NCBI GenBank assembly: GCA_017798125.1
Contig: CP059070.1
Coordinates: 1,116,001 to 1,180,000, forward strand
DNA from: Cryomorphaceae bacterium
GTDB lineage: Bacteria > Bacteroidota > Bacteroidia > Flavobacteriales > ECT2AJA-044
Reading direction: 5' to 3'
DNA: 64,000 nucleotides
The notes under the pieces were generated by a model that saw only the letters and a list, made by a program, of their open reading frames with translations, did no database searches and had not been told where the DNA came from. A program made the translations under genes and the position numbers. Positions 15,143 to 44,400 of this stretch are shown here, piece after piece (the first letter of the stretch is position 1; the number at the start of each line of letters is the position of its first letter).

Positions 15143-16314
15143 TTGAAAGGCAAGGCGACATCAATAAATCGAACCTTCAGATTTGCTCTCGTTGTATATA
15201 CGATGAGCGAGTTAATGGAATTGAGTTTGACGAAGATGGGGTATGCAATTATTGTAAGCAGGTAGATGATTTAAAGGAGCAGTTCGGGACAGGGCAAGAA
15301 AAAGGTAAAAAAGCCCTAGAAGATATAATCAGCGAGATCAAGAAAGACGGAAAAGGTAAAAAATACGACTGTATGGTCGGTGTGAGTGGGGGAACGGATA
15401 GTAGCTATATGCTCTACTGGGCCGTTCAAAAAGGGTTGAGGCCTTTGGCAGTACATTACGACAATACATGGAATTCGGCAATCGCAACTGAGAACATAAG
15501 GAAGGTGACAAGCGCTCTCAATATTGACCTTTTTACCTTAGTTGTAGACAATAAAGAGTCGGACGATATATTCAAATCTTTCTTTAAAGCAAGTGTTGCT
15601 GAAATAGAGGCTTCGACGGATTTAGCATTGGCTGAGACGTTGTATCGAGCCGCTTCCAAATACAAAGTCAAGTACGTTTTAGAGGGACATTCCTTTGTAA
15701 CGGAGGGGATTACGCCTGTAGGTAGAAATTACTTTGACGGAAAGTACATTAAGTCCATCCATAAGAAATACGGTAGCCTACCAATGAAGACCTATCCCTT
15801 AATGACCTTTTGGAGGTTTCTTTACTGGACTGTTTTCAAACGGATAAAAAAAATCAGGCCTTATTGGTATATGGATTATTCAAAGAGCGAGGCCAAAGAG
15901 TTTCTCTCGAAAGAATTTAACTGGGAGTACTACGGCGGACACCATTTAGAGAACAGGATGACGGCATTTTTTCATAGCTACTATTTGCCGAATAAATTCA
16001 ACACGGACATGAGGAATAATACCTTGTCTGCGGAGGTTCGAATGGGCTTGAAAACACGAAGCGAGGCCTGGGAGGAGTATAACAGCGAGCCTCACATGGA
16101 AGAAGAGCTGCTTGAGTACTTTAGAAAACGACTAAAGTTATCGGAAACTGAATTCGATGAAATTATGTCGCGTCCACCGAGAAGCTGGAATGAATTCCCA
16201 ACGTATAAAAAGCGCTTTGAGCGGTTAAGGCCATTATTTAAGGTTTTGGCTCATAGCAATTTAGTTCCAATGAGCTTTTATTTAAAATATTGTTTCCCAG
16301 CAAAAGTTGATTAG
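15139..16314 (+). CDS. N-acetyl sugar amidotransferase, WbpG/PseA-type
   Basis: An ATP-dependent PP-loop amidotransferase of 391 residues. I use the ATG at 15139, in an ATGA overlap with the formyltransferase, because it places the zinc-ribbon pairs Cys16-x2-Cys19 and Cys36-x2-Cys39 at the N-terminus as in the family; a longer upstream frame only reads through the formyltransferase end. The PP-loop SGGTDSS is at 83-89. WbpG in Pseudomonas and PseA in Campylobacter are linked to conversion of an acetamido group to an acetamidino group, and WbpG works with HisH- and HisF-like partners. The same two partners follow here immediately, so an amidine substituent is strongly suggested. Confidence 0.85.
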   Translation: MIERQGDINKSNLQICSRCIYDERVNGIEFDEDGVCNYCKQVDDLKEQFGTGQEKGKKALEDIISEIKKDGKGKKYDCMVGVSGGTDSSYMLYWAVQKGLRPLAVHYDNTWNSAIATENIRKVTSALNIDLFTLVVDNKESDDIFKSFFKASVAEIEASTDLALAETLYRAASKYKVKYVLEGHSFVTEGITPVGRNYFDGKYIKSIHKKYGSLPMKTYPLMTFWRFLYWTVFKRIKKIRPYWYMDYSKSEAKEFLSKEFNWEYYGGHHLENRMTAFFHSYYLPNKFNTDMRNNTLSAEVRMGLKTRSEAWEEYNSEPHMEEELLEYFRKRLKLSETEFDEIMSRPPRSWNEFPTYKKRFERLRPLFKVLAHSNLVPMSFYLKYCFPAKVD

Positions 16315-16950
16315 ATGATCACTATCGTTGATTATGGAATGGGAAATTTGGGCTCTCTTCGAAATATGTTCAAGAGATTGAAGACTCCGGTAACCATTGA
16401 ATCAGACCCAGATGTGGTGCTTCGAGCATCAAAGATTTTGTTGCCGGGCGTTGGGGCCTTTGATTCAGCCATGAAAAGAATCAATGAATCCGGCCTTCGA
16501 GAAGCGCTCTTGGAAAGCGTTGTAACTCAAAATACTCCGATTTTAGGGATATGCTTAGGTATGCAATTGCTTGTCGAAGGATCCGAAGAAGGGAACCTCG
16601 AGGGTTTGGGGTTCATCAAGGGCTATGTGCGCCGGTTTAAGTTCCAAGATAACTCACTGAAAATTCCCCATATGGGCTGGAATGAAGTTTCGGATTACGG
16701 AGGAACGCAACTTTTTAAGGGATTGAACGAACTCACTCTTGAAGAGGAAAATCCGCGCTTTTATTTTGTACACAGCTATCACGTTGAATTATCCAATGAC
16801 GAGGATGTTGCCTTTAAGACGGAATATGGTCATGAGTTCAATTCAGCTTTAAAGCGAGGACATGTTTTGGGAGCGCAATTCCACCCAGAAAAGAGCCATA
16901 AGTTCGGTATGCAGTTCTTGAGAAATTTTATAGAATACGAAGGTGCTTAG
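16315..16950 (+). CDS. HisH-like glutamine amidotransferase (amidine module)
   Basis: A class I glutamine amidotransferase of 211 residues with nucleophile Cys80 in GICLGMQLL and the His190/Glu192 pair in QFHPEKSH. It resembles the HisH glutaminase of imidazole-glycerol-phosphate synthase. It begins directly after the WbpG-type gene and overlaps the HisF-like gene by 8 bp, with no other histidine genes nearby. Its role is therefore taken to be release of ammonia from glutamine for the WbpG-type enzyme, as for Pseudomonas HisH2. Confidence 0.88.
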   Translation: MITIVDYGMGNLGSLRNMFKRLKTPVTIESDPDVVLRASKILLPGVGAFDSAMKRINESGLREALLESVVTQNTPILGICLGMQLLVEGSEEGNLEGLGFIKGYVRRFKFQDNSLKIPHMGWNEVSDYGGTQLFKGLNELTLEEENPRFYFVHSYHVELSNDEDVAFKTEYGHEFNSALKRGHVLGAQFHPEKSHKFGMQFLRNFIEYEGA

Positions 16951-17701
16951 GACTCGAGTTATTCCGACTTTGTTGCTTTCGGGTGAAAGCCTAGTCAAAA
17001 CAAAGAAGTTTAAAAAACCCGGATATATCGGTGACGCCGTCAATACGGTCAGGATATTCAATGAGCTCGAAGTTGATGAAATCGCAATTTTGGGTATAAA
17101 TCAGAGTAGAAAAAAGATAGAACCCAATTTCAATCTTCTCGAAGAACTGGCGAGCGAATGCTTTATTCCCCTCTCGTATGGTGGCGGAATAACAAATATT
17201 GAACAGGCGAGAACCCTGTTTCAAATAGGGTTCGAGAAAATAATTATTAATAGTGCCGGGTATTATAACCCCGAGCTTATTACTGCGTTGAGTGAGCACT
17301 ATGGAAGTCAGAGTGTTATTGGATCTGTAGACTATAAAATGAGCTTTCGCGGAATTCCAAAGGTTTATTCTCACGGTGGATCGAAAAGACAGAAAGGCAG
17401 TCTGCAGGAGCACATTTCCAGATTAGTTGAACACGGAGTTGGGGAGATACTTTTGAATTCTATTGATAGAGATGGCAGTTGGTTGGGTTTTGACCTCGAC
17501 ACGATCAAAGCCATTTCAAGTGAACTCGAGGTGCCTCTGGTTGCTTGTGGCGGTGCTGGAACCACGTCAGATTTAAAAGAAGGAATGGATGCTGGCGCCT
17601 CAGCCCTTGGAGTAGGGAGTATGGTTGTGTACCAAAGTAAAGGCATGGGAGTTCTCGTGAGCTTTCCGGACCGACAAAAATTGTATAATCTGTTGAGATG
17701 A
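16943..17701 (+). CDS. HisF-like TIM-barrel ammonia-channel partner
   Basis: A 252-residue (beta/alpha)8 protein of the HisF family. The first strand reads RVIPTLLLSGESLVKT, where true HisF has the catalytic Asp11 in IPCLDV; that residue is hydrophobic here. The second HisF aspartate position appears kept in GSVDYK. This pattern fits the polysaccharide-linked HisF paralogues that dock HisH and conduct ammonia rather than cyclise histidine intermediates. It overlaps HisH by 8 bp and the next sulfotransferase by 4 bp. Confidence 0.86.
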   Translation: MLRTRVIPTLLLSGESLVKTKKFKKPGYIGDAVNTVRIFNELEVDEIAILGINQSRKKIEPNFNLLEELASECFIPLSYGGGITNIEQARTLFQIGFEKIIINSAGYYNPELITALSEHYGSQSVIGSVDYKMSFRGIPKVYSHGGSKRQKGSLQEHISRLVEHGVGEILLNSIDRDGSWLGFDLDTIKAISSELEVPLVACGGAGTTSDLKEGMDAGASALGVGSMVVYQSKGMGVLVSFPDRQKLYNLLR

Positions 17702-18804
17702 AAGAAGAGACGATTGTCCATATTGGATTGCATAAAACTGGAACGAAGTATCTACAACATCACCTATTTCCTAAGCTAGATGTCGAAGGCTTCAACTACA
17801 ACCCTGAGCCTTTCACTCAATATGCGATGGACTACATCAAAGCGGAGGCTTCGGACCGCCCTTTGGTATTGAAGGCCATAATACGCGAACGTGAGGAACT
17901 AAAGAAGGATAATCGTAAGAAGCTCATATCCAAAGAAATAATGTGCGGAGATCTTTTCTCAGCATATCGTAACTGGAAGGAGAACGTGAAAGGATTGAAA
18001 GACGTCTTTGGCGAATGCAAGATTATTGTAAGCCTCAGGTTTCAGCCCAATTGGCTCATTTCTTGTTACAGAGAATCTGTTCACGAGCACCATTATCAAC
18101 CAATAGAAAAATTTTTAGCCTACGACTCTGAATCCGATGAGTTCTTGCGAGATGTTTCACCACGCAATAATCTCGGATTTGCTCAATTAGATGCGCTTCG
18201 ACTGGATTATGAGAAGATGTTATCCGAGCTATACCAGACATTTGATAGAGAGAACGTATTCGTATATTTTTTCGAAGATTTCAAGCGCGACCGAACTGCT
18301 GTCATAGAACGAATTTTAGATTTCATTGGAAGCGGTGCCGTGGAGCCGAAACCTATTTCCGGAATCCCGAATAGAGGGTATTCGGCGGCGTCCATAGAAA
18401 GGTCTATTGAACGATATAAAGAACTCAGACATTCCGATAAGGCCGGGATGATCCACAGACCAATTTTCTTTCATGGAAAAAACAGCATTCCGGCTGGAAA
18501 CATTGAACTTTCAGTATTGGACAAGGATAAGTATTGGGGACCACAGTTTTTGAGAGATAACGAAGAAGTAAGGTCACCGAATTACCCAAATTTATCTGAT
18601 AAGGAAAGGACGGATCTGGAAAATTCATGGAGATACCAGGTTAAAAATGTTTTCGATAAAGAAAAATACACGGATTGGGATTTACTGGGTGACCTAAGAG
18701 AACCCTTGGAGGATTATTACACTGACTTGAATGCCAAGCTTAAAAACGTCATCGATGGCTCGGTGCCTGAGATTTATTTTCACGGGACGAGAACCTCGAA
18801 ATAA
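17698..18804 (+). CDS. Sulfotransferase-like protein, divergent
   Basis: A 368-residue P-loop protein. The PAPS-binding motif GLHKTGTKY is at residues 10-18. The region expected to hold the 3'-phosphate site reads IIVSLRFQPNWLISCYRESV, keeping Arg and Ser but with altered spacing compared with the two sulfotransferases at the start of the window. It is also about 80 residues longer, with an extra C-terminal part. It sits in the core operon, overlapping the HisF-like gene by 4 bp. Sulfation of a polysaccharide sugar is the likely role; a non-sulfating P-loop function is less likely but possible. Confidence 0.75.
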   Translation: MKEETIVHIGLHKTGTKYLQHHLFPKLDVEGFNYNPEPFTQYAMDYIKAEASDRPLVLKAIIREREELKKDNRKKLISKEIMCGDLFSAYRNWKENVKGLKDVFGECKIIVSLRFQPNWLISCYRESVHEHHYQPIEKFLAYDSESDEFLRDVSPRNNLGFAQLDALRLDYEKMLSELYQTFDRENVFVYFFEDFKRDRTAVIERILDFIGSGAVEPKPISGIPNRGYSAASIERSIERYKELRHSDKAGMIHRPIFFHGKNSIPAGNIELSVLDKDKYWGPQFLRDNEEVRSPNYPNLSDKERTDLENSWRYQVKNVFDKEKYTDWDLLGDLREPLEDYYTDLNAKLKNVIDGSVPEIYFHGTRTSK

Positions 18805-22874: not shown

Positions 22875-24042
22875 TTTACTGAAGCTTTACCTCCTCACTT
22901 TTGGGATCAACGTATATGGAGTTGATGTACTTGGTTTTTCCCTTACTATTCCGACCATAGTGGTATTGACGTTGGTGCTTTATTCTATTCCAAATCGGAA
23001 AATGAAGACCAATATCGCCGTGCCCTTGTTCGTTTTCATCGGTTTCTGTTTTGTTTCAACTATTCTGTATCACGATATCGGCTTCATTTATTCTTTGGGG
23101 ATGCTCACGGCTATGGCGTTGCCCTTGGTCTTTGAATACGAAGAGCGCGATTTAGTTGGGTTTGAAAAATACTTGAGATATGGGTTTATTCTGACACTTC
23201 CGATCGTGGCTTATGATCTCGGTGTAACCTTTTTAGGGTTGGAACCCCTGGAGGCCTATGTGCCCTTTTTCCGAAAAGCCACGAATTCGCCCTTGTCGAG
23301 TTATTTCGGCTACTACCGAGTTAAATCGACCTTTACCGAGCCGTCGTACTACGGCATCTACCTTTGCACGCTCTTGTATATAGGGCTTAAAAGTAAAGCC
23401 CCTTCTCGGTATTTATGGGTAATCTTTGGTGTGATCCTGGCCACTGTTTCCCTTACGGCTGTGGTAATTTCGGGGTTCATTTTCGCCCATTGGGCATATT
23501 CAAACGGTAGAATTGGTTTTCGATATGTTTTGCTCTTTGTGGCCATACTGTTGTTTTTGCCAGCCGGATTCGACCTTATCATTAATCGGATAACAGAGAC
23601 TTTTTCAAGCATCAGCAGCTCTTCTTTTGAAGGTAGCGAAGGAGTACGGGCCAACAGTATCTTTGTTATGTTCAATTACCTTAATGAGGGTGGGGTGAAG
23701 CAGTTTTTCTTAGGTGAGGGATATTCACATTACGACAAATGGCTCATTGAGCGATTCAAGGGAAACCCGCTCATTGGATATTCAAGGGGGCAGATCTTCA
23801 ATGCCTTTGCAGTTGTAGGCTTGTCGGTTGGAGTTTTGGGCCTATTGCTATACCTGAACCTGCTTTTCAGGTTGTCGTTGGATTCGAAATTTAACCGTTT
23901 CGAAATAGGATTGCATGCTGCGATTCAGTTTAGCTTGGCTTTTATCGTGAGTTATTTATTCTGGGGGGTACTTATTTTAATTGGATTATCGAATGCGCAT
24001 TCGAGGTTCAAGCAACTGAAAAATCATCCGCATGATCGATAA
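22864..24042 (+). CDS. O-antigen/capsule polymerase, Wzy-like
   Basis: A 392-residue inner-membrane protein with about ten hydrophobic segments and a larger periplasmic loop in the middle (around residues 120-170). That loop contains SPLSSYFGYYRVKSTFTEPSYYG, the STFxEPSYYG type of motif seen in polysaccharide polymerases and ligases of the Wzy/WaaL group. Sequence conservation in Wzy proteins is low, so the call rests on topology, that loop and position behind Wzx and GT4. It would link repeat units in the periplasm. It overlaps the next gene by 11 bp. Confidence 0.82.
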   Translation: MINNLLKLYLLTFGINVYGVDVLGFSLTIPTIVVLTLVLYSIPNRKMKTNIAVPLFVFIGFCFVSTILYHDIGFIYSLGMLTAMALPLVFEYEERDLVGFEKYLRYGFILTLPIVAYDLGVTFLGLEPLEAYVPFFRKATNSPLSSYFGYYRVKSTFTEPSYYGIYLCTLLYIGLKSKAPSRYLWVIFGVILATVSLTAVVISGFIFAHWAYSNGRIGFRYVLLFVAILLFLPAGFDLIINRITETFSSISSSSFEGSEGVRANSIFVMFNYLNEGGVKQFFLGEGYSHYDKWLIERFKGNPLIGYSRGQIFNAFAVVGLSVGVLGLLLYLNLLFRLSLDSKFNRFEIGLHAAIQFSLAFIVSYLFWGVLILIGLSNAHSRFKQLKNHPHDR

Positions 24043-25120
24043 AGTCCTGAGAACGATAAGGCACGAGGGAATGGATGCCGTTTTGGATAAAGCAAGAAAG
24101 CGGCTATTGTACAAAGCAAAACGCGCCCTTCAACCAAAGGATGACCGCTTTGAAAACTGGGCAAACCTCAAAGGTGCATTTAAGGGCAAACGTGTCTTTT
24201 TATTAGGCAATGGGCCTAGCCTGAATAAAACTCCTCTGCATTACTTGGAGGGCGAATACGTCATGTGTTTTAACCATTTCTACAATATGGAAGAACGGAT
24301 TCCATGGACTCCTACATTTTATATGTCCACGGATAATCTGGTACTTCAAGATCTTTTAGGGCAGCTCAATGATCTAATTGAACGTTACGACTATAGTTTC
24401 TTCCCTGACATTCATTTTCGGGGAGCGGAATTTTACTCGAAAGTCGACAATAGAGGAGATGCTTATTGGCTCAAGCAGGTGCATGGGCTAGGGTTTTCTC
24501 GAGAAATGCCCGAAGTTTATTTGGGGGGATCGGTGATCTATGAAGGCTTTCAGGTACTGGAGTACTTGGGTTTTGACGAAATCTACTTTATCGGAGTGGA
24601 TATGAGTTTTGTGGTTCACAAATCCTCAAAAAAACTGAATAGGAATCAAACGGATATAGAATCGAATAAAGACGATGATCCAAACCATTTCGACCCTCGT
24701 TACTTTGGAAAGAAAAAAAGGTATCATCAGCCCGAACAATATGTCATTGATAATATTAGGAACCACCTCGCTTATTTATCCGGTATCAATGGAGTTGGAG
24801 AAAAAATAGTCAATGCTGGGATAGACAGTACCGTGAATGATTTTAAGAGAGTGAATTTTACCGACTTATTCTCCAGAACGCTAGAAGAAGAAAAGACCCT
24901 TGAGGGTAAATTAATCTCGAAATATTGTCAACATCAATCCCTTGAAGATTTCATTAGAGTAGAAGACGAATTGGGAATTGATGTAACGGAAACTCAAGGG
25001 TTAGGTAATTTTTATACAACGTCGGAGCGCGGCCCCGACATGGTAAAATTGTCTATTTTTACGCATATTCCCTTGGGCCCATTCCGGGAGCACTATGTCT
25101 TCATCAAAAGAAAACCCTAG
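24032..25120 (+). CDS. DUF115 / GT42-sialyltransferase-like protein
   Basis: A 362-residue protein. After a basic N-terminal helix the conserved block KGKRVFLLGNGPSLNKT (GNGPSLN at 59-65) is followed by GEYVMCFNHFY, then IPWTPTFYMSTDN and later DEIYFIGVDMSF. The GNGPSL...N-x-FY pattern is shared by MptE/DUF115 proteins, by the Maf flagellin nonulosonate transferases and by CstII-type GT42 sialyltransferases. Its place, directly before a CMP-sugar cassette, makes a CMP-ulosonate glycosyltransferase role attractive. I see the fold signature; the transferase activity is inferred. It overlaps Wzy by 11 bp and is followed 13 bp later by the dehydrogenase. Confidence 0.7.
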   Translation: MIDKVLRTIRHEGMDAVLDKARKRLLYKAKRALQPKDDRFENWANLKGAFKGKRVFLLGNGPSLNKTPLHYLEGEYVMCFNHFYNMEERIPWTPTFYMSTDNLVLQDLLGQLNDLIERYDYSFFPDIHFRGAEFYSKVDNRGDAYWLKQVHGLGFSREMPEVYLGGSVIYEGFQVLEYLGFDEIYFIGVDMSFVVHKSSKKLNRNQTDIESNKDDDPNHFDPRYFGKKKRYHQPEQYVIDNIRNHLAYLSGINGVGEKIVNAGIDSTVNDFKRVNFTDLFSRTLEEEKTLEGKLISKYCQHQSLEDFIRVEDELGIDVTETQGLGNFYTTSERGPDMVKLSIFTHIPLGPFREHYVFIKRKP

Positions 25121-25133
25121 AAACCATTAAAAA

Positions 25134-26063
25134 ATGACAAAAGTATTGTTGTCGCCCTCCTCTATAGGCCAGTGCGGAAGCCAGCCTATGGATTTGCTAC
25201 TTAAAAACGGCTACGAAATAATTCCAAACCCTTTCGGGCGTAAGCTAACACCCGAGGAGACCATTGAGCTAGCCAAAGATGCTGCGGGTGTCGTGGCAGG
25301 TGTCGAGACCTATGATAAATCGGTCCTGGATTCATTGCCCAATTTGAAATGCATTAGCCGTGTTGGAGTTGGAATGGATAGCATTGACCTGGATTATGCC
25401 CAGGAGCGGGGTGTTATAATAAAAAACACTCCTTTTGGCCCAACGAAGGCCGTTGCCGAGCTTTCCATTGCACTGGCCATGAACCTACTTAGAAACATAG
25501 GGTACTCCGATAGGTCTATCCGAGAAGGGGTGTGGAAAAAGTCGATCGGAAATCTGATTGAAGACAAAGAGGTTGGAATTCTTGGGTTGGGTCGAATTGG
25601 CAAAGCCACAGCTATGAAATATCAGGCTCTGGGTTGTCGGGTGAGCGCCTATGACCTCTATCCTGATGAAAAGTGGATGTCGGAGAACGGAGTCTTGTCA
25701 AAAAGCTTTGAGGAGGTTCTCAAGAATTCCGATTTAATCTCTATTCATGTTCCCGGCGGTAGTTTCGATGGGGCTGTTATTGGAAGGGCTGAATTAAATT
25801 TGGTCAAACACAATGCCGTTTTAATAAATCTTTCCCGGGGAGGCGTTGTGGATGAAGCTGCCTTGTTTGACTTTCTCAAAAAAAATGAAACGGCCAAGGC
25901 CGCTTTGGATGTATTTAGTGAGGAGCCGTATTCAGGGCCATTTACAAAATTGGAAAATGTGGTATTGACACCCCATTTAGGGTCTTATGCAAAGGAAGGT
26001 AAACTAGCCATGGAGGTTGACGCGGTGAAGAACCTGATGGATGCACTTGAAGAAACGAAATGA
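25134..26063 (+). CDS. D-2-hydroxyacid dehydrogenase (SerA-like)
   Basis: A 309-residue NAD-dependent dehydrogenase of the phosphoglycerate/hydroxypyruvate group. The NAD motif GILGLGRIGK lies around residues 143-152. The catalytic trio is visible as Arg in NLSRGGVVDE, Glu in SEEPYSG and His in TPHLGSY. It lacks the ACT regulatory domain of serine-pathway SerA. Position as the first enzyme of the CMP-sugar cassette suggests oxidation or reduction of an alpha-hydroxy or alpha-keto sugar acid rather than serine synthesis. It is coupled to the next oxidoreductase through a 4-bp overlap. Confidence 0.85.
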   Translation: MTKVLLSPSSIGQCGSQPMDLLLKNGYEIIPNPFGRKLTPEETIELAKDAAGVVAGVETYDKSVLDSLPNLKCISRVGVGMDSIDLDYAQERGVIIKNTPFGPTKAVAELSIALAMNLLRNIGYSDRSIREGVWKKSIGNLIEDKEVGILGLGRIGKATAMKYQALGCRVSAYDLYPDEKWMSENGVLSKSFEEVLKNSDLISIHVPGGSFDGAVIGRAELNLVKHNAVLINLSRGGVVDEAALFDFLKKNETAKAALDVFSEEPYSGPFTKLENVVLTPHLGSYAKEGKLAMEVDAVKNLMDALEETK

Positions 26064-27079
26064 TTGAAGGAAAAATGAAAATTCGAGTCGGTATCATAGG
26101 ATATGGAAAAATGGGGCAATTGCGTCATCAGGCATCTGAAGCCACTGGATTATCTGAGGTAATAGCCATTTCTGAGCCAAACTTGGTTGATGGGGTGGGT
26201 GAAGGACTTCCCAATCTGAGTCATGATGAAATTGTTTCGAGGGAAGATATAGATGCGATAGTGATCTGCACGCCCAATTTTTTGAATAAAGAACTTACCA
26301 TTGCTGCTCTGAGAGCGGGGAAGCATGTCTTTTGTGAAAAGCCGCCCGCATTCACAGGTAAGGATATGGAAGAAATCATTGCAGTAGAGCAAGAAAGTGG
26401 AAAGTGTTTGATGTATGGGTTCAATCACCGGCACCACGACAGTGTCATGAAGATCAAGGAGATCATTGCTTCCGGAGAATATGGATCAGTACTTTGGATG
26501 CGCGGGCGATATGGAAAGAGCGTTACGGATGATTACTACAAGCAATGGAGGTCAAAGAAAGAGTTAGCGGGAGGAGGCATCCTCATGGATCAAGGAATCC
26601 ATATGATGGACTTGTTCCTGTATTTGGGTGGAAAATTTGATACGGTGAAAGCGGAAATCTCCAATTTGTATTGGAAAATGGACGTGGAGGACAATGCTTT
26701 CGTTATTTTAAAGAATAATGATACCGGATGTGTTGCTTCGCTGCACAGCACTATGACACAATGGCGACATCTGTTTTCGTTGGAGATTTTCTTGGAGAAG
26801 GGGTATATGGTTCTGAATGGATTAATTACCGGATCAATGTCCTACTCCATTGAGGGTGCTGAACAGCTCTCCATAGCGAAGAGTAGAAGCGCCGCGCCTG
26901 CAGCTACATTCGAAGATGAAGAGCGACTCCGTTATCATACTGACAACAGCTGGAATTATGAGATGGAGCATTTTTACGAAGCCATTGAGCAAGGATTCGA
27001 GATAAGCAAGGGCAGTAGTAAAGATGCTCTTGATTTGATGCGTGTTATGGATAAATGCTACGAACAGAAATCATTTTAA
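26060..27079 (+). CDS. Gfo/Idh/MocA family oxidoreductase
   Basis: A 339-residue NAD(P)-dependent sugar dehydrogenase. The Rossmann motif GIIGYGKMG is at residues 11-19 and the family motif EKP at 93-95 (CEKPPAF), followed by GGGILMDQGIHMMDL, the usual catalytic-helix block. The start at 26060 forms an ATGA overlap; Met6 (26075) is an equally possible start. Such enzymes oxidise or reduce ring hydroxyls of sugars, nucleotide sugars or cyclitols such as inositols. The last possibility is notable because a sugar phosphate cyclase is encoded two genes later. Confidence 0.87.
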   Translation: MIEGKMKIRVGIIGYGKMGQLRHQASEATGLSEVIAISEPNLVDGVGEGLPNLSHDEIVSREDIDAIVICTPNFLNKELTIAALRAGKHVFCEKPPAFTGKDMEEIIAVEQESGKCLMYGFNHRHHDSVMKIKEIIASGEYGSVLWMRGRYGKSVTDDYYKQWRSKKELAGGGILMDQGIHMMDLFLYLGGKFDTVKAEISNLYWKMDVEDNAFVILKNNDTGCVASLHSTMTQWRHLFSLEIFLEKGYMVLNGLITGSMSYSIEGAEQLSIAKSRSAAPAATFEDEERLRYHTDNSWNYEMEHFYEAIEQGFEISKGSSKDALDLMRVMDKCYEQKSF

Positions 27080-27089
27080 AGGACTAATC

Positions 27090-27698
27090 ATGGACAGAAA
27101 AGTATTGATTAAAAATCATTTTGAAGATTATAAAGGCCGCTTGTTGAAGTTGATCGATGAAGTTGATCCAAATGTGCTCGACCAGATCGCAACTTCCTTT
27201 ATTACAGCCTTCAAGAACGATAAGACCATATGGTTTTGCGGAAATGGGGGAAGTGCCGCTACGGCTTCTCACATGCAGGTAGATTTCGGTTATTTTGTGC
27301 GGTACTTTTCGAAAAGAAGACCAAGAGTTCGGGCACTTACCGACTGCACTCCAATCATGACTGCCATTGGAAACGACAATAGTTATGATGCTCTTTTTAC
27401 AGAGCAAATGCAAGACAACTTCGATGCGGGTGACGTTATCATTTGTATATCGGCAAGTGGAAATTCCATGAACGTTGTGAATGCTGCAAAATATGCATCC
27501 GAATTGGGAGGCACATCCATCGCTTTTGTAGGGTTTGAAGGAGGTAAGCTCAATGAAGTAGCCGACATCTCACTCTTTACGCCAAACCCGAAAGGAGAGT
27601 ACGGACCCATCGAAGATTTACATACGATGATCATGCACATCTTGGTATCGTACCTTGAAAAGGACGAGGAGTACTTGTCCGTTGCGAATCCGTCGTGA
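27090..27698 (+). CDS. SIS-domain isomerase, GmhA-like
   Basis: A 202-residue SIS-domain protein resembling sedoheptulose-7-phosphate isomerase GmhA. I use the ATG at 27090; a longer frame would run back into the previous gene. The phosphate-binding motif GNGGSAATASHM is at 51-62 and SASGNSMNVV follows in the second loop. At the GmhA catalytic glutamate position (HFAEEL in E. coli) this protein has Asp65 (HMQVDF), and a late-helix His is present in DLHTMIMHIL. No other ADP-heptose genes are in the window, so a C7 or related keto/aldose phosphate for the neighbouring cyclase is the favoured substrate. Confidence 0.82.
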   Translation: MDRKVLIKNHFEDYKGRLLKLIDEVDPNVLDQIATSFITAFKNDKTIWFCGNGGSAATASHMQVDFGYFVRYFSKRRPRVRALTDCTPIMTAIGNDNSYDALFTEQMQDNFDAGDVIICISASGNSMNVVNAAKYASELGGTSIAFVGFEGGKLNEVADISLFTPNPKGEYGPIEDLHTMIMHILVSYLEKDEEYLSVANPS

Positions 27699-28456
27699 GC
27701 ATGGAGATCAACTTTAAGGGAAAGCGAGCATTAATCACCGGAGGTTCCCGAGGAATTGGGTTTGAAATCGTTAAATGCCTGTCGGAGAATGGGGCTGAAG
27801 TTGTATTTACGGGCACCAAGGAAGAGTCTTGCCAGAGCGCACTAAGGGAGTTAGAGAGGAATGGTAATTCTGAAAATATCGAAGCCGTTGCAGTTGATTA
27901 TCTTGATAAGGATAATTTTGACTCATTTCTTGCCCACGATGAAATGCAAAAGGGCTTTGATATTGTCGTGAACAATGCGGGCACGAACATCATCAAACCT
28001 TTTGAAACTTTTGAGGAAGTCGACTACGATAAATTGATGGATCTGAATTTCCGAGCACCATGGAGTATAACGCAGGCCGTTGTTCGTGGAATGCGTCAAA
28101 AAAATTATGGAAGAATAGTAAATATTTCTTCCATATGGGGAGTGATATCGAAGCCTCATAGGGCTCTATATACCTCCAGTAAGCACGCTATACTTGGATT
28201 CACAAAAACTCTGGCTGTCGAGTTTGGCAAACACAACGTTTTGACCAACGCGGTTTCTCCAGGGTTCACTTTAACTGAACTAACGAAGAATAGCCTGAGC
28301 ACATCAGAAATGGTCGAGCTGGGTAAAAAAGTTCCTGTAAATAGAATGGCCGAGCCCATTGAAATGGCTAGAACCGTTGCTTTCTTAGCCAGTGACCTTA
28401 ATACATATATAAACGGACAAAATATCGTTGTAGATGGCGGATTCACAATTGTCTAA
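27695..28456 (+). CDS. Short-chain dehydrogenase/reductase
   Basis: A classical SDR of 253 residues: cofactor motif TGGSRGIG (15-22), NNAG at 93-96, Ser in NISSIWG, and the catalytic Tyr159-x3-Lys163 in LYTSSKHA. The start is either GTG at 27695, in a GTGA overlap with the isomerase, or ATG at 27701. Family members reduce ketones on many substrates. Coupling to the isomerase (4-bp overlap) and to the cyclase (23-bp overlap) places it in the middle of the CMP-sugar cassette, so a keto-sugar or keto-cyclitol reduction is likely. Confidence 0.87.
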   Translation: MSMEINFKGKRALITGGSRGIGFEIVKCLSENGAEVVFTGTKEESCQSALRELERNGNSENIEAVAVDYLDKDNFDSFLAHDEMQKGFDIVVNNAGTNIIKPFETFEEVDYDKLMDLNFRAPWSITQAVVRGMRQKNYGRIVNISSIWGVISKPHRALYTSSKHAILGFTKTLAVEFGKHNVLTNAVSPGFTLTELTKNSLSTSEMVELGKKVPVNRMAEPIEMARTVAFLASDLNTYINGQNIVVDGGFTIV

Positions 28457-29528
28457 TTTCCGAGTAAAGAGCTCTATTCAGGATTATGAAGTGCATTTCA
28501 CGAGTGATTCGAAAAAGGCTTTGCTTGAAACATGGAAATCCGGAGACATGATCATTATAGATCGGGTTATTTATCATGAGTATCCCGAGCTATTGGCAAA
28601 CGGGCCGTGGAAAGAGGAAGAGGTTATTGTTGTGGACGCAACGGAGTCGACAAAGAGTTACCAAGGTGTAGAACCCGTGATAGAGTATTTGATCAAAAAT
28701 GGATTTAGACGTAACCATAGGTTGATCGGAATAGGGGGCGGAATCATACAGGATGTTACAGCGTTCATAGCATCTATACTTTACCGCGGTGTCTCCTGGT
28801 TCTTTTTCCCCACGACGCTTTTAGCACAAGGGGATAGTTGTATTGGTTCAAAGACCTCGATAAACTTTAAGAATTTCAAAAATCAGATTGGGGGCTTTTA
28901 CCCCCCTGTTCGGATATTTATTGACAAGCGGTTTTTGTCCAGCCTATCTATGGCAGAATTGAAATCAGGATTAGGCGAAATGTGTCATTATTTCGTTGTT
29001 CAAAGCCAGGAGGACTTTGACCGCTACAAAACGGATTATCCAAAGGCGATCGAGGATCTCGACGTAATTAATGGATTGGTACAACGGAGCTTGGAGATCA
29101 AAAAGGCGTATATAGAAATCGACGAATTCGACAAGAATGAGCGACAGGTTTTTAATTACGGTCACTCATTTGGGCATGCGATCGAAAGCTATTATCAATA
29201 TGCTATTCCGCATGGTATAGCTGTTTCTTTTGGAATGGATATGTCAAATTTCGTATCCATGAAAAAGGGTTATTTAGAGCGGCCGGCCTTTGACCATATG
29301 CACGAGTTATTTGAGCAAATATGGAGTGATTTCAGCATTTCGGATTTAGACGTAGATGCACTGATGGACGCCCTGAAGAAAGACAAAAAGAACGTTGACC
29401 ACTTATTGGGTTTAATCTTGAATAAAGGATGTGGACGAGTGTTTAAGGATTTGACTGAGCCTAATGAACTTTTTGTTGATTGGATGCATGAGTACTTAAG
29501 AACATACCACCAGAGCAATGATAGTTGA
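28434..29528 (+). CDS. 3-dehydroquinate-synthase-like sugar phosphate cyclase
   Basis: A 364-residue member of the AroB / sugar phosphate cyclase superfamily, which converts a keto-sugar phosphate to a carbocycle using NAD and a divalent metal. NAD region GIGGGIIQD (99-107), YRGVSW, PTTLLAQGDSCIGSKTS with Lys140, and the metal ligands Glu182 (GLGEM), His244 (NYGHSFGHA) and His260 (IPHG) are all present. The AroB block AExIKYG reads GEMCHYF, with His185 where AroB has lysine. No other shikimate gene is near. The upstream GmhA-like isomerase hints at a C7 sugar phosphate substrate, as for the epi-valiolone synthases. The product class is inferred. Confidence 0.82.
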   Translation: MADSQLSNFRVKSSIQDYEVHFTSDSKKALLETWKSGDMIIIDRVIYHEYPELLANGPWKEEEVIVVDATESTKSYQGVEPVIEYLIKNGFRRNHRLIGIGGGIIQDVTAFIASILYRGVSWFFFPTTLLAQGDSCIGSKTSINFKNFKNQIGGFYPPVRIFIDKRFLSSLSMAELKSGLGEMCHYFVVQSQEDFDRYKTDYPKAIEDLDVINGLVQRSLEIKKAYIEIDEFDKNERQVFNYGHSFGHAIESYYQYAIPHGIAVSFGMDMSNFVSMKKGYLERPAFDHMHELFEQIWSDFSISDLDVDALMDALKKDKKNVDHLLGLILNKGCGRVFKDLTEPNELFVDWMHEYLRTYHQSNDS

Positions 29529-29994
29529 TACACTAGAGAACATCGAGATTTACAAGGGACTATCTCCTGATATTTACGCTGGATTAAAGTGGTTAAAAGA
29601 GGCTGCGAAAGAGCCTTCGATCCAGCTTGGCGTTTATGAGATCAACGAGCGAGTAAAAGCCATAGTGTCGGAGTACGAAACGATTGAACATTTTGAAAGA
29701 GGTTTTGAATCGCACCGTCATGTCATTGACATTCAATACCCAGTGATCGGGCTCGAACGTGTTTTGTGGTCTCCAATCATCGGGATGGAAGTAAACATTC
29801 CTTATGATCAAGCAAAAGATCGGACCTTCTTTAAGAACCCACACCCACAAAGCACGCATGTAGATATCGGTAATGGTGTATTTGCGATTATGTTCGAGGA
29901 GGACGGGCATGGGCCTCAGCATTACGTTAGGGCTCCCATGCTCATTAAAAAGATCACGGTTAAGGTAAGCACGAAGTCTGCTGAACCAGAATGA
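29518..29994 (+). CDS. YhcH/YjgK/YiaL (DUF386) family, NanQ-like anomerase
   Basis: A 158-residue protein of the YhcH family, about the standard length. It has the fold's recognisable segments HRHVIDIQYPVIGLE (His66, His68, Asp71) and GVFAIMFEEDGHGPQHY near the C-terminus. E. coli YhcH (NanQ) speeds anomer interconversion of N-acetylneuraminate. Here it is next to a CMP-sugar synthetase, which needs one anomer of its acid sugar, so it would hand the correct anomer to that enzyme. It overlaps the cyclase gene by 11 bp and the synthetase gene by 4 bp. Confidence 0.85.
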   Translation: MIVDTLENIEIYKGLSPDIYAGLKWLKEAAKEPSIQLGVYEINERVKAIVSEYETIEHFERGFESHRHVIDIQYPVIGLERVLWSPIIGMEVNIPYDQAKDRTFFKNPHPQSTHVDIGNGVFAIMFEEDGHGPQHYVRAPMLIKKITVKVSTKSAEPE

Positions 29995-30677
29995 AAAATG
30001 GAGGAATGATTACCCAGAAAGTTACTGCACTTGTTCCCATGAAGGCGCATTCAGAAAGAGTGCCTAATAAGAATACCCGTCCTTTAGCTGGGAAACCAGC
30101 ATGTCACTGGGTTTTGGAAACATTAGAGTCCTGTACGGAAATTGACGAAGTCATTGTCAATACAGATTCCACTGAAATAGCGGAATTAGTTCAAGATTTT
30201 GGGAAGGTAAAAGTATTGATGCGGCCTGAATATCTTTGTGGTGATGAGGTGAGTATCCAGCCTCTTATTGAATATGACCTGAAGCATGCCACAAACGAGG
30301 TAATTCTACAAACCCATAGCACCAACCCCTGCATATCAAGTAAGACTATTACTAGGGCTATTCAACGTTTTCTGAAGCAGGATGATTTTGATTCGGTGAT
30401 GACGGTGACGCCAATTAAGCAGCGATTTTATTTTGTTGATGGTAAACCTGTAAATCACGATCCAAATCATCTCATCCAGACTCAAAAACTAGAGCCACTT
30501 TATCATGAAAATTCCTGCTTTTACATTTTTACCAAAGAAATGAATGCTTTGAGGCAAAACCGTCTAGGATCAAATCCATTGTTTTTCGAAATGGATCCTC
30601 TTGAAGCTGCTGATATTGATGAATGGGAAGACTTTTATTGGGCGGAGTATTTATTAAATCGCAAAAAAGAAAAGTAA
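29991..30677 (+). CDS. CMP-sugar synthetase (acylneuraminate cytidylyltransferase family)
   Basis: A 228-residue cytidylyltransferase. The nucleotide-binding signature is MKAHSERVPNKN (17-28), matching the R-x-P-x-KN loop of NeuA/KdsB-type enzymes, and VNTDSTEIAE follows. It lacks any C-terminal phosphatase or esterase domain. The family activates 3-deoxy-2-ulosonic acids with CTP to give CMP-sugars. The start at 29991 is in an ATGA overlap; Met6 at 30006 is an alternative. This is the key evidence that the cassette makes a CMP-activated acidic sugar, although some paralogues act on other substrates. Confidence 0.85.
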   Translation: MKNGGMITQKVTALVPMKAHSERVPNKNTRPLAGKPACHWVLETLESCTEIDEVIVNTDSTEIAELVQDFGKVKVLMRPEYLCGDEVSIQPLIEYDLKHATNEVILQTHSTNPCISSKTITRAIQRFLKQDDFDSVMTVTPIKQRFYFVDGKPVNHDPNHLIQTQKLEPLYHENSCFYIFTKEMNALRQNRLGSNPLFFEMDPLEAADIDEWEDFYWAEYLLNRKKEK

Positions 30678-30678
30678 C

Positions 30679-31332
30679 ATGCTGACTTATTTGTCCCACG
30701 TTTTGGATGAAAACACTCCGTCATACGGAGACCGAGATCGGCTGAAAATTGCACCAAAGAGTACCATAGTGGATGGCGTTGGGGCAAATACCAGTACTAT
30801 AACGTTCACCAACAATCATATGGGGACGCATATGGATACTCCATTTCATTTCTGCGATAATGGAAAAAAAACACCAGAGTATTCAGCTAGCGAATTGTAC
30901 TTTGATAAAGTTGCGCTTATTGACATTCCTTGTGAAGGGGCAAAATTGATTCAGATCAGCGACCTTGACTTGAGAAATGTATCGAATGAGACAGATCTTT
31001 TGCTCATTCGTACTGGATACGAAAAATGGCGTTCAAATGATAAATATCACAACGATAATCCGGGACTGGCGCCCGAGATCGCTTCTTATCTGAGGGAAGA
31101 ATTCCCCAATATACGTGCCGTTGGTTTTGACTTTATATCGCTTACGAGTTGGAAGCACAGGGAAGAAGGAAGATTGAGTCATCGAGCTTTTTTATGTGGA
31201 GAAAATCCAATTGTAGTTCTTGAAGATGTAGCATTAGAAGGCTTGACTTCAGAGCCAGAATGGGCCATGGTTGCCCCACTAAGAACAATAGATGGTAATG
31301 GCGGACCAGTTACAATTATAGCATCTGTTTAG
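30679..31332 (+). CDS. Cyclase-family metal-dependent hydrolase (KynB-like)
   Basis: A 217-residue protein of the cyclase family that includes arylformamidase KynB and various lactone/amide hydrolases. The metal motif H-x-G-T-H-x-D-x-P-x-H-F is exact: His47, His51, Asp53, His57. No kynurenine-pathway gene is nearby. In this setting it might open or close a sugar lactone, or remove an N-formyl or other acyl group from an intermediate. It follows the CMP-sugar synthetase by one base and precedes the aldolase by 18. The family is clear; the substrate is not. Confidence 0.83.
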   Translation: MLTYLSHVLDENTPSYGDRDRLKIAPKSTIVDGVGANTSTITFTNNHMGTHMDTPFHFCDNGKKTPEYSASELYFDKVALIDIPCEGAKLIQISDLDLRNVSNETDLLLIRTGYEKWRSNDKYHNDNPGLAPEIASYLREEFPNIRAVGFDFISLTSWKHREEGRLSHRAFLCGENPIVVLEDVALEGLTSEPEWAMVAPLRTIDGNGGPVTIIASV

Positions 31333-31350
31333 AGAACAATACATAGAAGA

Positions 31351-32124
31351 ATGCAAAACACGAGCTTGAAATCTAAAATTCGAAATGGTGAGCTGACTCT
31401 AGGGTCATGGATTACTATAGGTCACCCGAGCATTATTGAAGTTTTAGCAGAGTCCGGTTTTGATTGGCTTGCAGTGGATGTCGAGCATAATTTGATTGAT
31501 CCGAGTAGCCTTCAAATTCTGATTTCAACTATACAGTCAAGGGGAATGGCTGCGCTAGTTCGTGTTCAGCAAAACGAAGAAGTATATATTAAGCACGCAA
31601 TGGACGCCGGTGCTGATGGGGTAATAGTCCCTATGATTAAAACAAAACACGACGCCTTATCAGCCGTGAATCATGTACACTACCCCCCATTAGGGAAACG
31701 AGGTGTGGGCTTGTCAAGAGCACAGAGATATGGACAGGGATTTGAGGATTACAAAAAATGGTTGGTAGAATATTCAGTCGTTATAGCCCAAATAGAACAT
31801 TACGAGGCTATTGATAATTTAGAAGAAATCTTTGAGGTTCCTCAGCTTGACGCGGCTATGATTGGTCCATATGATCTGTCTGGGTCTTTAGGAATGCCGG
31901 GTTCATTTGAGGATTTTGGTTTTAAAGCTAAGCTTCAGAGGTTTAAGGAAGTTTGCTCGAAGATGGGAATTAGGACAGGATATCACGTAGTTCCTCCAAA
32001 AGGGGATTTAATGCTGGAGGCCATTGATGCAGGTCATACTTTTCTAGCCGTTAGTACGGATTTTATGCTGCTAGGCGATAAGTCTCGTGCTTTAATAGAG
32101 GAGATAAATTCTCTGAGTAAGTAA
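31351..32124 (+). CDS. HpcH/HpaI-family pyruvate aldolase
   Basis: A class II aldolase of 257 residues related to 4-hydroxy-2-oxoheptanedioate and 2-dehydro-3-deoxyglucarate aldolases. Catalytic His46 lies in DVEHNLID, Arg71 in LVRVQQN, metal ligands Glu149 (AQIE) and Asp175 (IGPYDLSGSLG), and the family stretch YPPLGKRGVG is present. These enzymes reversibly join pyruvate to an aldehyde, producing a 2-keto-3-deoxy (ulosonic-type) acid. In a cassette with a CMP-sugar synthetase and an anomerase but no NeuB- or KdsA-type enzyme, it is the best candidate for making the ulosonic acid skeleton. Direction of catalysis is inferred. Confidence 0.87.
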   Translation: MQNTSLKSKIRNGELTLGSWITIGHPSIIEVLAESGFDWLAVDVEHNLIDPSSLQILISTIQSRGMAALVRVQQNEEVYIKHAMDAGADGVIVPMIKTKHDALSAVNHVHYPPLGKRGVGLSRAQRYGQGFEDYKKWLVEYSVVIAQIEHYEAIDNLEEIFEVPQLDAAMIGPYDLSGSLGMPGSFEDFGFKAKLQRFKEVCSKMGIRTGYHVVPPKGDLMLEAIDAGHTFLAVSTDFMLLGDKSRALIEEINSLSK

Positions 32125-32128
32125 TTTC

Positions 32129-33289
32129 ATGAAGAATTTTAGCGGGGCGTACAAGAGTTGTATAGTACATGAAGTAACTCCGAGCAACATAGGACGCTAT
32201 GTGTTGCCTCTTCTTAAGAAACTTAAATCACGGCTTTCGGATCTCGAGTGTTACGTTCAAATCGAACCTTTTGTAAACGAAGAAGAAGTTATTTCCATTT
32301 GTTCCAACGAGAATGTTAAAGTACTTCGATCAAATGAAGTTCACGGGTTCATTTCGAATCAAAATGTTCAAGAAGTATTATTCCTTACTTACAGTTATCG
32401 AATTCCTGATCTCTATTGGACAAGTATATATAGGCTTCATGGTGTGATGACCGCCCAGATACAACATGGCATGTATATGAAATACTTGTCAAGAGATGTC
32501 GCAGGGTTTACTTCAAATTTAGAACGAAAACTAGTCTATTTAAAAAGATTCGTTCAGCTTATATTGGCGAACAGTAATCGTTTGAGATTAATGGGCTTTC
32601 TCTTGAATAAGGACTTTCTTAATTCGGAGAATATTAGGAAATGGTTGCTTAAAGGAGATTTATCGAATATTCAGTCTGATCATTTATTTGTTTGGGGCGA
32701 ATATTGGGCCGATTGGTTTACAATGTATCACTACTATCCTGAGAATAGGGAGTTCTCGGTTATTGGCAACCCAGACTATTTCAGCCACCGGAACTTATTG
32801 CAAGAAGATCCTGAAGATGCTATAACCTATATTTGCCAAACCTTGGTTGAAGATGGGCGTATGACGAAGAAAGAGCATGATTCATTGATGGGACGCGTGA
32901 GTTCTTTTTTGCCTGACAGCCGAAAGGTGTATTTCAAGCTGCATCCAAGAAGTGATAGGTCTTTGTACGACGGTGTTTTGAAGAATTCGAACGTTACTCT
33001 TCGAACAGACTTTCCTTATACTTCGCATTACCTTGGCCATTATTCTTCTATGCTGATTCTTGGTGTTTCCGAAAAATCTGGGCTTGGGTTAATTGAAATT
33101 GATCAACATGAAGTTCCGGAGTTTTTTGAGCAATTAGCGGAAGCAAATTCGGGGGATCCGGAGAAATTAAAGGTCTTTTTAAAAGAGCCCTATAAAGGGA
33201 CTAAAAAACCTAGAAAAATCGACTACTTTTTTCTACGAGGAACAAAAGATCCCGACTTTGTCATAGTGGATAAAATAATGAAGAAGTAA
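32129..33289 (+). CDS. Polysialyltransferase-like GT-B glycosyltransferase
   Basis: A 386-residue protein of low overall familiarity. Three features recall the bacterial sialyl/polysialyltransferases and Kdo transferases: Glu241-Asp242-Gly243 after a strand (TYICQTLVEDG), the HP motif FKLHPRSD (His272-Pro273), and a Ser-Ser pair, HYSSMLIL (Ser306-Ser307). An HG motif (QHGMYMKY) and VWGEYWADW lie earlier, as in GT-B capsule enzymes. Spacing of the EDG and HP motifs is shorter than in the polysialyltransferases I recall, so I call it only polysialyltransferase-like. It follows the CMP-sugar genes by four bases and is a prime candidate for using their product. Confidence 0.55.
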   Translation: MKNFSGAYKSCIVHEVTPSNIGRYVLPLLKKLKSRLSDLECYVQIEPFVNEEEVISICSNENVKVLRSNEVHGFISNQNVQEVLFLTYSYRIPDLYWTSIYRLHGVMTAQIQHGMYMKYLSRDVAGFTSNLERKLVYLKRFVQLILANSNRLRLMGFLLNKDFLNSENIRKWLLKGDLSNIQSDHLFVWGEYWADWFTMYHYYPENREFSVIGNPDYFSHRNLLQEDPEDAITYICQTLVEDGRMTKKEHDSLMGRVSSFLPDSRKVYFKLHPRSDRSLYDGVLKNSNVTLRTDFPYTSHYLGHYSSMLILGVSEKSGLGLIEIDQHEVPEFFEQLAEANSGDPEKLKVFLKEPYKGTKKPRKIDYFFLRGTKDPDFVIVDKIMKK

Positions 33290-41480: not shown

Positions 41481-44400
41481 ATGAAAGCACTTATACGCTC
41501 CTTCCAAAAGTCACTCGTCTTATTATTTATTTCTCTATTGGTTCATCCTTTGGTTTATGCCGAGGGGTCGAAAGAGGCTAATGCCAATGGTGGGCCTACC
41601 ATCCAATTAGAGGTTGGTCGTAGTTTAGCTGGACAAAATCTTGGGCCGTATTTTGGTTCCGATGCTACACAACGTATTTACGTTACGTTGGACAATGCAG
41701 ATGAGGCTCTATACTTCGGGTTTGACGAAGATGGATCAGATAATCTGTGGGTTCGAATTATGGATAGTGGGGGAAATAAAGTTTGGCCGGCTGGCACAAG
41801 CCAATCTATCCCAGGATCTGGAACAGGATATATCGATGGGCAATCTGAGGCAGACAATGGCCCAAATTATCCGACTGGGTCTGCAGCTCAATCTTCTGGC
41901 TATGACGCTTTTGTTTTCTCACCAGCTCAGGCCGGAGAATATTACATTGAATTCAACAACAATAGCGGAACATCATGGAGCGGTGGTTTCGGGTCTACTG
42001 GAGAGCTCGTTAACCTTTGGGATTTCACCGTTATTAATACCGTCACACATACCATCCAAGAAGGTCGACTCTGGAATCGAAGCTGGACTTTGCGAAATGA
42101 TGATGGCTGGGGTACTCCATTCTCGAATGAAACCTTTATTTACACTGCGGACGGTACCGTAACTAAATTTTGGGGGGATGATTTTAACCCTTTCGCTTGG
42201 AATACTTTTGCCAATTCTACAGGTACTGGAAATACTGGAGATATAGAGGAAGATCGTAAATCAAGAACGGGATATGCTGGAACGCCAGAGCACAAACTCT
42301 TTTGGAATGAACCGGATATCAATGTATTTCCGAATGGAACCATGCCTACCGTATCAACCGATACTCCCGTCATCGAAGGATGCTTGGGCGACTATTGCGT
42401 TCGAGCTCGATTTAATAATGCCGGAGGCCTAGGAAGAATCTTGCTTGACCTTGACGGGCCGGACGGGGTATATACCCCTGGTACGGCTGATGTCTTACTA
42501 GAAGAGGATGTTCCAGCGGCTGGGTGGCATTGTTTCGTTTGGGACGGTAAAGATGGGCTTGGCGCTACAGTTAGTACAAGTGTTTCTATGAACTTGAGTG
42601 TCGATATCATTGCGGGGGTGACGCACTTTCCGACGTTTGACACGGAATGTAATTTGGACGGTTACAAGGTAGAGCGTGTTCGTCCACAATCAAATGTACC
42701 CGATTTGTTTTGGGACGACTCAGAAGTTCCGGATCCAAGCAATGAGAATCCAGATGAAGAAGAACTACAAGGGTGTACGCCCGTAATTGCTGGGTCCGGT
42801 TGCCATACTTGGACCGGTTGTACCAACGGTACATATGGAGATGCTCAAACGATCAACACCTGGTGGTACTCCTACATTGAGTCCAGTACTTTTAACTCGA
42901 TTCCTATTTCATCGAGCATTGGCCAAACCACAGTTACTGCCTCTGACCCTCCCTCTTGTAACGGAGAATCCGATGGTGTCATTACCGTTTCCGTGAGTGG
43001 TGGCTCATCACCGTACACCATCGTCTGGAATTCGGGTTCAACGACAACAAACAGCAATACATATTTGGTTACTGGCCTAGCAGCCGGAACGTACAATTTC
43101 ACCGTTACGGACAACGATGGTTGTACCAATAATCCTGGACTTACTCTTACAGAACCAGATGTACTTAATGCTGGTGACGATCAAGTCAATGTGGACATCA
43201 ATGGACAAAGTACTGGGTCAGCAACCATTTCAGCCTCGGGGGGAACTACTCCATACACTTTTGTTTGGTCGAACGGTGAGTCCGCGAGTGGAGTGAGTGA
43301 ACTTCAAATAACGGGGCTAGCCGCGGGAACCTATACGGGGACGGTGACGGATGCAAACGGCTGTAAGGATATAACGTCAGTGACCATCACCGAACGAGAT
43401 TTATTGGAGGCTGGAGTAGATGCTCAGTCCCCTGCTAGCTCTTGTACCAACGCGGATGGTAGTGCTACAATTTCTGCTTCAGGCGGAGATGGTTCATATA
43501 CCTACACTTGGCCAGGTGGCTCTACGGACAATCCAAACAATAGTCTGGCCGGTGGTGATTATCAAGTGACCGTGACTGATGGCGTGGGAGCCAAAGCTCT
43601 GGTCGACGTTACCATTGGAGAGCCTGCCAGTCCTACGGCCATTTCGGGAGTAAATACTGATTTCAACGGTTCGGATGTCAGCTGCGCGGGAGCGTCAGAT
43701 GCCAACATCGGAGTTACCGCTTCAGGTGGAGCAGGAGGATATAGCTACGAATGGAATACGGGTTCGACCGACCAAGACGTGGATGGTCTTGGAGCAGGAG
43801 AATACCAAGTCACTGTAACGGACGCTGGAGGGTGTACCGTCATTGTCGGTGTAACGGTCACCGATCCATCATCCTTAAGTCTAGACAATTCAAGGGTCAG
43901 CGATAACAACGGCTCCGCGGTTTCCTGTAATGGTGGTTCAGACGCAACCATCTCAATTACTGCTTCTGGTGGAACAGGTTCTCTGACCTATGGATGGACC
44001 GGACCTTCTTCGTTCTCTTCAAGTAGCGAGGATCTGACGGGCTTAGAGGCCGGGGTATACGCATTGACTATTACGGATGCCAATGGATGTACGGTAAAGC
44101 AAGGATATACCTTAACCGAGCCAACAGCTCTAACCTTCGCTGCTACGGACGTAAGCGATTACAATGGCTCAGATATCAGCTGTAATGGTGCTGATGACGC
44201 CACTTTAGGGGTTACGGCATCTGGAGGTACGGGAGTCCTGACCTATGCTTGGACGGGCCCTAGCGGCTATTCAAGTACCAATCAAGACATAAGTAGTTTG
44301 GAGCCCGGAACGTATAAAGTAACCGTTACGGACGCAAATAGCTGTACAACGGAACAAAATTTCACCCTTACAGAGCCAGCGTCGGTGACCATTAGTTCGA

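Follow-up and report, generated by a model that had tools for sequence, protein, structure and literature searches.

The polysaccharide locus analysed here encodes a sugar phosphate cyclase (SPC) of the NCBIfam family TIGR04425 that, judged by sequence, is distinct from the housekeeping dehydroquinate synthase (DHQS) of the same genome and that may close a carbon ring on a DAHP-like acid destined to become a CMP-activated sugar of a surface glycan. We infer the activity, the substrate, the product and the order of steps, as well as the presence of the carbocycle itself in the finished polymer, and our confidence in the ring-closing role is evenly balanced. The gene (positions 28434 to 29528, forward strand; all positions are those of the window, the whole 64,000-nucleotide stretch of DNA under analysis) encodes 364 amino acids with the Pfam domains DHQ_synthase and DHQS_C. 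Across residues 11-356 the protein scores 431.9 bits against TIGR04425 ("AroB-related putative sugar phosphate phospholyase (cyclizing)"; cut-off 400), which makes it a member by the curated cut-off of a hypothetical equivalog with no assigned reaction; against the aroB model TIGR01357 it scores 256.1 bits, under the cut-off of 305. The genome, a single 2.84-Mb contig, contains a second DHQ_synthase gene (C1:57299) that exceeds the aroB cut-off of 305 with 327.2 bits and has all DAHP-contact residues.

In a maximum-likelihood tree of 59 sequences, whose references were AroB/DHQS, 2-epi-5-epi-valiolone synthases (EEVS) and desmethyl-4-deoxygadusol synthases (DDGS), the TIGR04425 type splits from all AroB/DHQS, EEVS and DDGS with a UFBoot support of 100, on a branch that also takes in the more distant cyclases of loci L010, L011, L076 and L077. 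Within it, the subclade of the window cyclase (type A) has a support of 93 and a second subclade (type B), 33-38% identical to the window cyclase, has a support of 100. The first-pass annotation had proposed a non-shikimate cyclase dedicated to the polysaccharide locus, with no shikimate gene adjoining; this is borne out by the position outside AroB, by the separate aroB and by the conserved sugar-acid cassette described below, and no adjoining shikimate gene was seen among the window open reading frames searched with Pfam and NCBIfam. The cyclases of L010 and L011 (Acidobacteria, Aurantimicrobium) are deep TIGR04425-like proteins that fall under the family cut-off and have the type-B gene set, so that some of the clade escapes the NCBIfam model. 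A cyclase on a Streptomyces plasmid (L064:4872-5987), annotated only as 3-dehydroquinate synthase family, branches beside EEVS/DDGS and has neither the Arg nor the DKK lysines retained in DHQS.

The window cyclase appears catalytically equipped: Lys140 (in SKTSINF) and the metal ligands Glu182 (in GEMCHYF), His244 (in NYGHSFGH) and His260 (in IPHGIA) are intact, as first reported and now confirmed by position. The Lys-to-His change at residue 185, also in GEMCHYF, is real as well, and since His occupies this position in 13/13 type-A proteins it is not an isolated mutation; Lys is found in 13/13 other TIGR04425-type relatives, 24/24 AroB/DHQS and 6/6 EEVS/DDGS (type A versus other relatives, Fisher test 1.9e-7, relatedness ignored). 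An association of His185 with the SIS, Gfo and SerA genes was considered and dropped, because L075 and L076 carry those genes with Lys. Changes common to the whole TIGR04425 clade (G-to-Q106, S-to-C136, G-to-S139, G-to-S142 and also Tyr242) lie close in sequence to conserved pocket residues.

Comparison with the DAHP pocket of Staphylococcus aureus DHQS (Asp130, Lys136, Asn146, Glu178, Lys181, Lys221, Arg235, Asn239, His242, His246 and Lys314; PMC6262012) indicates that 10 of the 11 contact residues are retained in the window cyclase, the equivalent of Lys181, His185, being the sole change, and that all 11 are retained in type-B cyclases. EEVS and DDGS lack the equivalents of K221, N239, H246 and K314 and mostly that of R235; the window cyclase keeps K223, R237, N241, H248 and the DKK lysines, which are mostly lost in sedoheptulose 7-phosphate cyclases. 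EEVS and DDGS act on a substrate without a carboxylate. Retention of the very residues that they have lost therefore suggests, as a reading of residue patterns, that the TIGR04425 substrate carries a carboxylate, and a carboxylated heptulosonate 7-phosphate would be likelier than sedoheptulose 7-phosphate. The analogy with EEVS and gadusol-type enzymes drawn in the first-pass annotation, which implied use of sedoheptulose 7-phosphate, accordingly gives way to a DAHP-like carboxylated substrate; DAHP itself, to which the full DHQS pocket of the type-B relatives might point, is a less likely substrate.

The cyclase gene lies in a forward-strand cassette with intergenic gaps of -23 to 18 bases. 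Upstream are genes for a DUF115/MptE-like protein that is a candidate Maf-type glycosyltransferase (24032 to 25120; PF01973), a SerA-like D-2-hydroxyacid dehydrogenase (25134 to 26063; Pfam 2-Hacid_dh; R235/E264/H281 invariant), a Gfo/Idh/MocA oxidoreductase (26060 to 27079; Pfam; K94-P95 and H181 invariant; conserved in the cassette), a GmhA-like SIS-domain sugar phosphate isomerase (27090 to 27698; Pfam SIS_2; conserved in the cassette) and an SDR dehydrogenase (27695 to 28456; Pfam; S146/Y159/K163 invariant) that overlaps the cyclase gene by 23 bases. Downstream are genes for a sugar anomerase-like YhcH/YjgK/YiaL protein (29518 to 29994; PF04074; TIGR00022 above cut-off), a NeuA/PseF-like CMP-sugar cytidylyltransferase (29991 to 30677; PF02348; PseF is the best NCBIfam match, under cut-off), a PF04199 "cyclase" metal hydrolase that is possibly a lactonase (30679 to 31332; Pfam; H47-x-G-T-H51-x-D53...H57 invariant), an HpcH/HpaI pyruvate aldolase (31351 to 32124; Pfam; H46/R71/E149/D175 invariant) and a polysialyltransferase-like glycosyltransferase with a weak match (32129 to 33289; PF07388, 24.3 bits, cut-off 23.3). 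The invariant residues of the SerA, SDR, Gfo, PF04199 and HpaI partners, the same across loci, are those that we take to be catalytic from knowledge of their families. The earlier description of a C7 sugar phosphate isomerase two genes upstream is right as to position; its activity is presumptive, GmhA being the best but a weak NCBIfam match (103 bits, cut-off 209). As for AHBA genes, such as might accompany an amino-DHQS, neither an aminotransferase nor a sugar kinase was seen with Pfam and NCBIfam in the window cassette itself.

Elsewhere in the window, a formyltransferase, a PP-loop amidotransferase-like protein and HisH/HisF-like proteins are encoded in a row (14366 to 17701), as in acetamidino sugar loci, which suggests that the same polysaccharide contains another unusual sugar. 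Two or three sulfotransferase-like genes (7 to 1670 and 17698 to 18804, the gene at 17698 being just under the Pfam cut-off) indicate that the polysaccharide may be sulfated. A Wzc-like tyrosine kinase (7869 to 10325) ends in a run of Gly-Tyr repeats (GYGYGY...), which takes the tyrosine-rich tail usual in such kinases to an extreme, and a secreted repeat protein of 4639 amino acids (41481 to 55400) has a C-terminal segment resembling a type IX secretion sorting domain.

The core of the cassette (SIS isomerase, Gfo/Idh, SerA-like and SDR dehydrogenases, and the SPC), usually accompanied by YhcH, CMP-sugar synthetase, PF04199 hydrolase and HpaI aldolase, recurs in Bacteroidota, Cloacimonadota, Omnitrophota and a Magnetomicrobium metagenome-assembled genome, with most members at 40-70% identity. 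All five core genes occur together in every type-A-like locus that is long enough (contig ends truncate L008, L009 and L074), some with a weak SIS or SerA match. Of the 23 family loci with a readable upstream side, all but L077 have the SDR gene directly upstream of the cyclase gene and overlapping it (22/23), and the SDR of the window is probably the reductase of the cyclase product. YhcH is the downstream neighbour of the cyclase in most type-A loci, the DUF115/MptE-like gene recurs in L003, L005, L006, L043, L048 and L076, and in L076 a transaldolase-family gene adjoins the SIS gene. In the Omnitrophota locus L072 a gene of the CDP-alcohol phosphatidyltransferase family (L072:731-1504) follows the cyclase and a methyltransferase, possibly a lipid acceptor step for a cyclitol.

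Most type-B loci have no SIS, Gfo and SerA genes; in type B, SDR and cyclase are joined by CDP-3,6-dideoxyhexose genes (RfbF/G/H type), an acetolactate-synthase-like thiamine-diphosphate enzyme and an enzyme forming a 2-keto acid. The last belongs to the HpcH/HpaI family or, in the case of L050 and L077, to the NeuB family. In the tree, L074 and L075 fall with type B, yet they have CMP-sugar and NeuB genes, and L075 also has SIS, Gfo and SerA. With SerA-like, HpaI/HpcH or NeuB genes present in both contexts, a 2-keto-acid-forming gene thus accompanies the cyclase in type A and type B alike.

The TIGR04425 gene is rare and patchy in the phylum. Scores against the model are bimodal among the 395 phylum-sample genomes, with 11 genomes at 398-452 bits and the rest at or below 293, and 10/395 have a copy over the cut-off; in other groups the cut-off is exceeded in 3/193 genomes of the L009 group (Omnitrophota), 1/124 of a Cloacimonadota group and 1/198 of the L004 group. 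Plasmid records, from which the EEVS/DDGS references were drawn, yielded no close relative of the window cyclase, all being below 60% identity and the best at about 36% among the matches listed.

We propose that the cyclase would act by DHQS-like chemistry: a transient oxidation that depends on NAD, release of the 7-phosphate, re-reduction and an intramolecular aldol reaction that closes a six-carbon ring. The substrate would be a carboxylated heptulosonate 7-phosphate that resembles DAHP without being the same compound and that the cassette makes itself, either by isomerization and oxidation of a C7 sugar phosphate by the SIS, Gfo, hydrolase and SerA-like enzymes or by HpaI joining an aldehyde phosphate to pyruvate. 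The cyclase would turn this compound into a carbocyclic acid resembling DHQ, the ketone of which would be reduced by the overlapping SDR; the CMP-sugar synthetase would activate the acidic sugar, and the DUF115 or polysialyltransferase-like enzymes would transfer it into the surface polysaccharide. In its broader form, which we advance tentatively although we think it plausible, the proposal is of a widespread and horizontally spread SPC pathway in which a carba-ulosonic acid, or an ulosonic acid bearing a carbocycle, is activated with CMP and polymerised into the surface polysaccharides of bacteria.

CMP activation and transfer are the weakest part of this proposal. The sugars on which YhcH and NeuA/KdsB enzymes normally act have an anomeric centre, and a quinate-like carbocycle has none; therefore either YhcH may serve the substrate of the cyclase, or what is CMP-activated may be a separate ulosonic acid produced by the aldolase. 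Also at odds with the proposal are His185, the one contact residue not shared with DHQS; the full DHQS pocket of the type-B relatives; and the lack of HpaI in the cyclase genomes G099, G540 and G710, which makes the place given to the aldolase in the pathway tentative.

HpaI relatives, counted at E <= 1e-45, occur in 13 of the 395 phylum genomes, comprising 4/5 genomes with a type-A cyclase and 9/390 others (Fisher test 3.5e-6, uncorrected for relatedness). In five aldolase loci that lack a cyclase (L099-L103), a NeuA- or KdsB-type CMP-sugar synthetase is encoded together with a SerA-like protein. A HAD phosphatase is encoded in 5/5 of them versus 1/14 cyclase loci (L076), a contrast (Fisher test 5e-4, or 6e-3 once near-identical pairs are merged) drawn from a small sample of loci that were picked by the same searches. 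A 6-phosphogluconolactonase gene is present in L099 and L100, and a transaldolase gene in L103. The simplest reading is that phosphatase and cyclase are alternative removers of phosphate, with the cyclase also closing a ring, and that the pathway involves lactone or aldonate intermediates and C7 sugar phosphates.

An alternative order of steps, which we regard as unlikely, is that the cyclase and SDR act first to yield a cyclitol carbonyl compound, to which HpaI adds pyruvate; the resulting carbocycle-bearing 2-keto-3-deoxy acid would be CMP-activated in type A or, in type B, used by the thiamine-diphosphate enzyme on a CDP-4-keto sugar. This single order accommodates both contexts, type A ending in a CMP-sugar synthetase with YhcH and type B in an acetolactate-synthase-like enzyme beside CDP-3,6-dideoxyhexose genes, and it agrees with the occurrence of HpaI modules on their own. 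However, the DHQS-type carboxylate pocket is kept, which means that the substrate of the cyclase probably has an acid group already, and the SPC product offers no obvious aldehyde.

That the cyclase is a second DHQS isozyme, converting DAHP to ordinary 3-dehydroquinate for a quinate- or shikimate-like decoration, seems to us quite improbable. The window cyclase does have the fold, the metal ligands and 10/11 of the DAHP contacts in common with AroB, and the type-B proteins have 11/11. An AlphaFold2 model for which nine sequences were aligned has good confidence values (pLDDT 88.4, pTM 0.87), and the solved structures nearest to it are those of DHQS, with DOIS and the EEVS ValA lower (9.7e-22 for DOIS 2gru versus 2.8e-24 for the best DHQS). 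Against this stand the separate clade, the clade-wide Q106, C136, S139 and S142, the K-to-H185 change of type A, the housekeeping aroB elsewhere in the genome, a gene context free of shikimate genes and the co-conservation of supply enzymes with the cyclase.

More improbable still is an EEVS/EVS-like cyclase of sedoheptulose 7-phosphate supplying a C7 cyclitol. The upstream GmhA-like SIS gene and the transaldolase-family genes of L076 and L103 do hint at C7 sugar phosphates, and EEVS and DDGS belong to the same superfamily with the same type of mechanism; but the window cyclase lies outside their clade, is 21-24% identical to them, and has Lys, Asn and His at positions 223, 241 and 248, where the EEVS and DDGS compared have Met, Asp or Ala, and Pro. 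That the cyclase is a paralogue in divergence or decay, serving no specific role, as the altered contact residue might suggest, is scarcely credible when the metal ligands and nearly all contact residues are invariant across phyla at 55-63% identity, the coupling to the SDR is tight and the cassette is conserved.

To our knowledge, known SPCs work in the shikimate pathway or in the biosynthesis of small-molecule natural products. The preferred reading, a cyclase acting on a DAHP-like acid for a surface glycan, resembles the logic of the Kdo (KdsA-KdsC-KdsB) and NeuB/NeuA pathways, in which a C3-aldolase reaction and loss of phosphate lead to a CMP-sugar synthetase; the cassette has HpaI in place of KdsA or NeuB and the cyclase in place of the phosphatase, and KdsB-like genes are present in L044, L072, L101, L102 and L103. 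EboD, another SPC clade without a known substrate, belongs to a conserved operon and is usually annotated as dehydroquinate synthase (PMC5133447). The window cyclase is likewise an uncharacterised SPC in a conserved gene set, and is set apart from EboD by gene context: its neighbours are polysaccharide and sugar-acid genes, and the Ebo operon genes (UbiA-like, hydrolase, xylose-isomerase-like and phosphatase) are absent from the window locus.

Carbocyclic or ring-fused sugars of bacterial lipopolysaccharide are exemplified by caryose and bradyrhizose (PMC9671505, PMC4743980), and for the latter, whose genes were previously unknown, a candidate 11-gene cluster has been reported. The remark in the first-pass annotation that a carbocyclic unit in a capsule would be unusual is fair, with the reservation that these two sugars already set a precedent for such units in surface polysaccharides; no SPC is known to take part in making them. 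In the open-access library searched, we found no paper that uses the TIGR04425 name or describes cyclases in capsule or O-antigen loci or the gene combination of the cassette. What appears to be new from the sequences compared is a defined cyclase subclade with a conserved cassette, the family name being already known in NCBIfam.

For annotation, these results would provide a correction, as a search with the DHQ_synthase domain alone names TIGR04425 genes aroB. The family, treated as one equivalog, here comprises two kinds of cyclase, type B with Lys and type A with His, whose gene contexts differ; the contrast amounts to a natural experiment in substrate selection by the pocket. If the clade is indeed tied to polysaccharide loci, it would reveal genes by which bacteria equip their surface glycans with carbocyclic sugars, of which only a few are known there.
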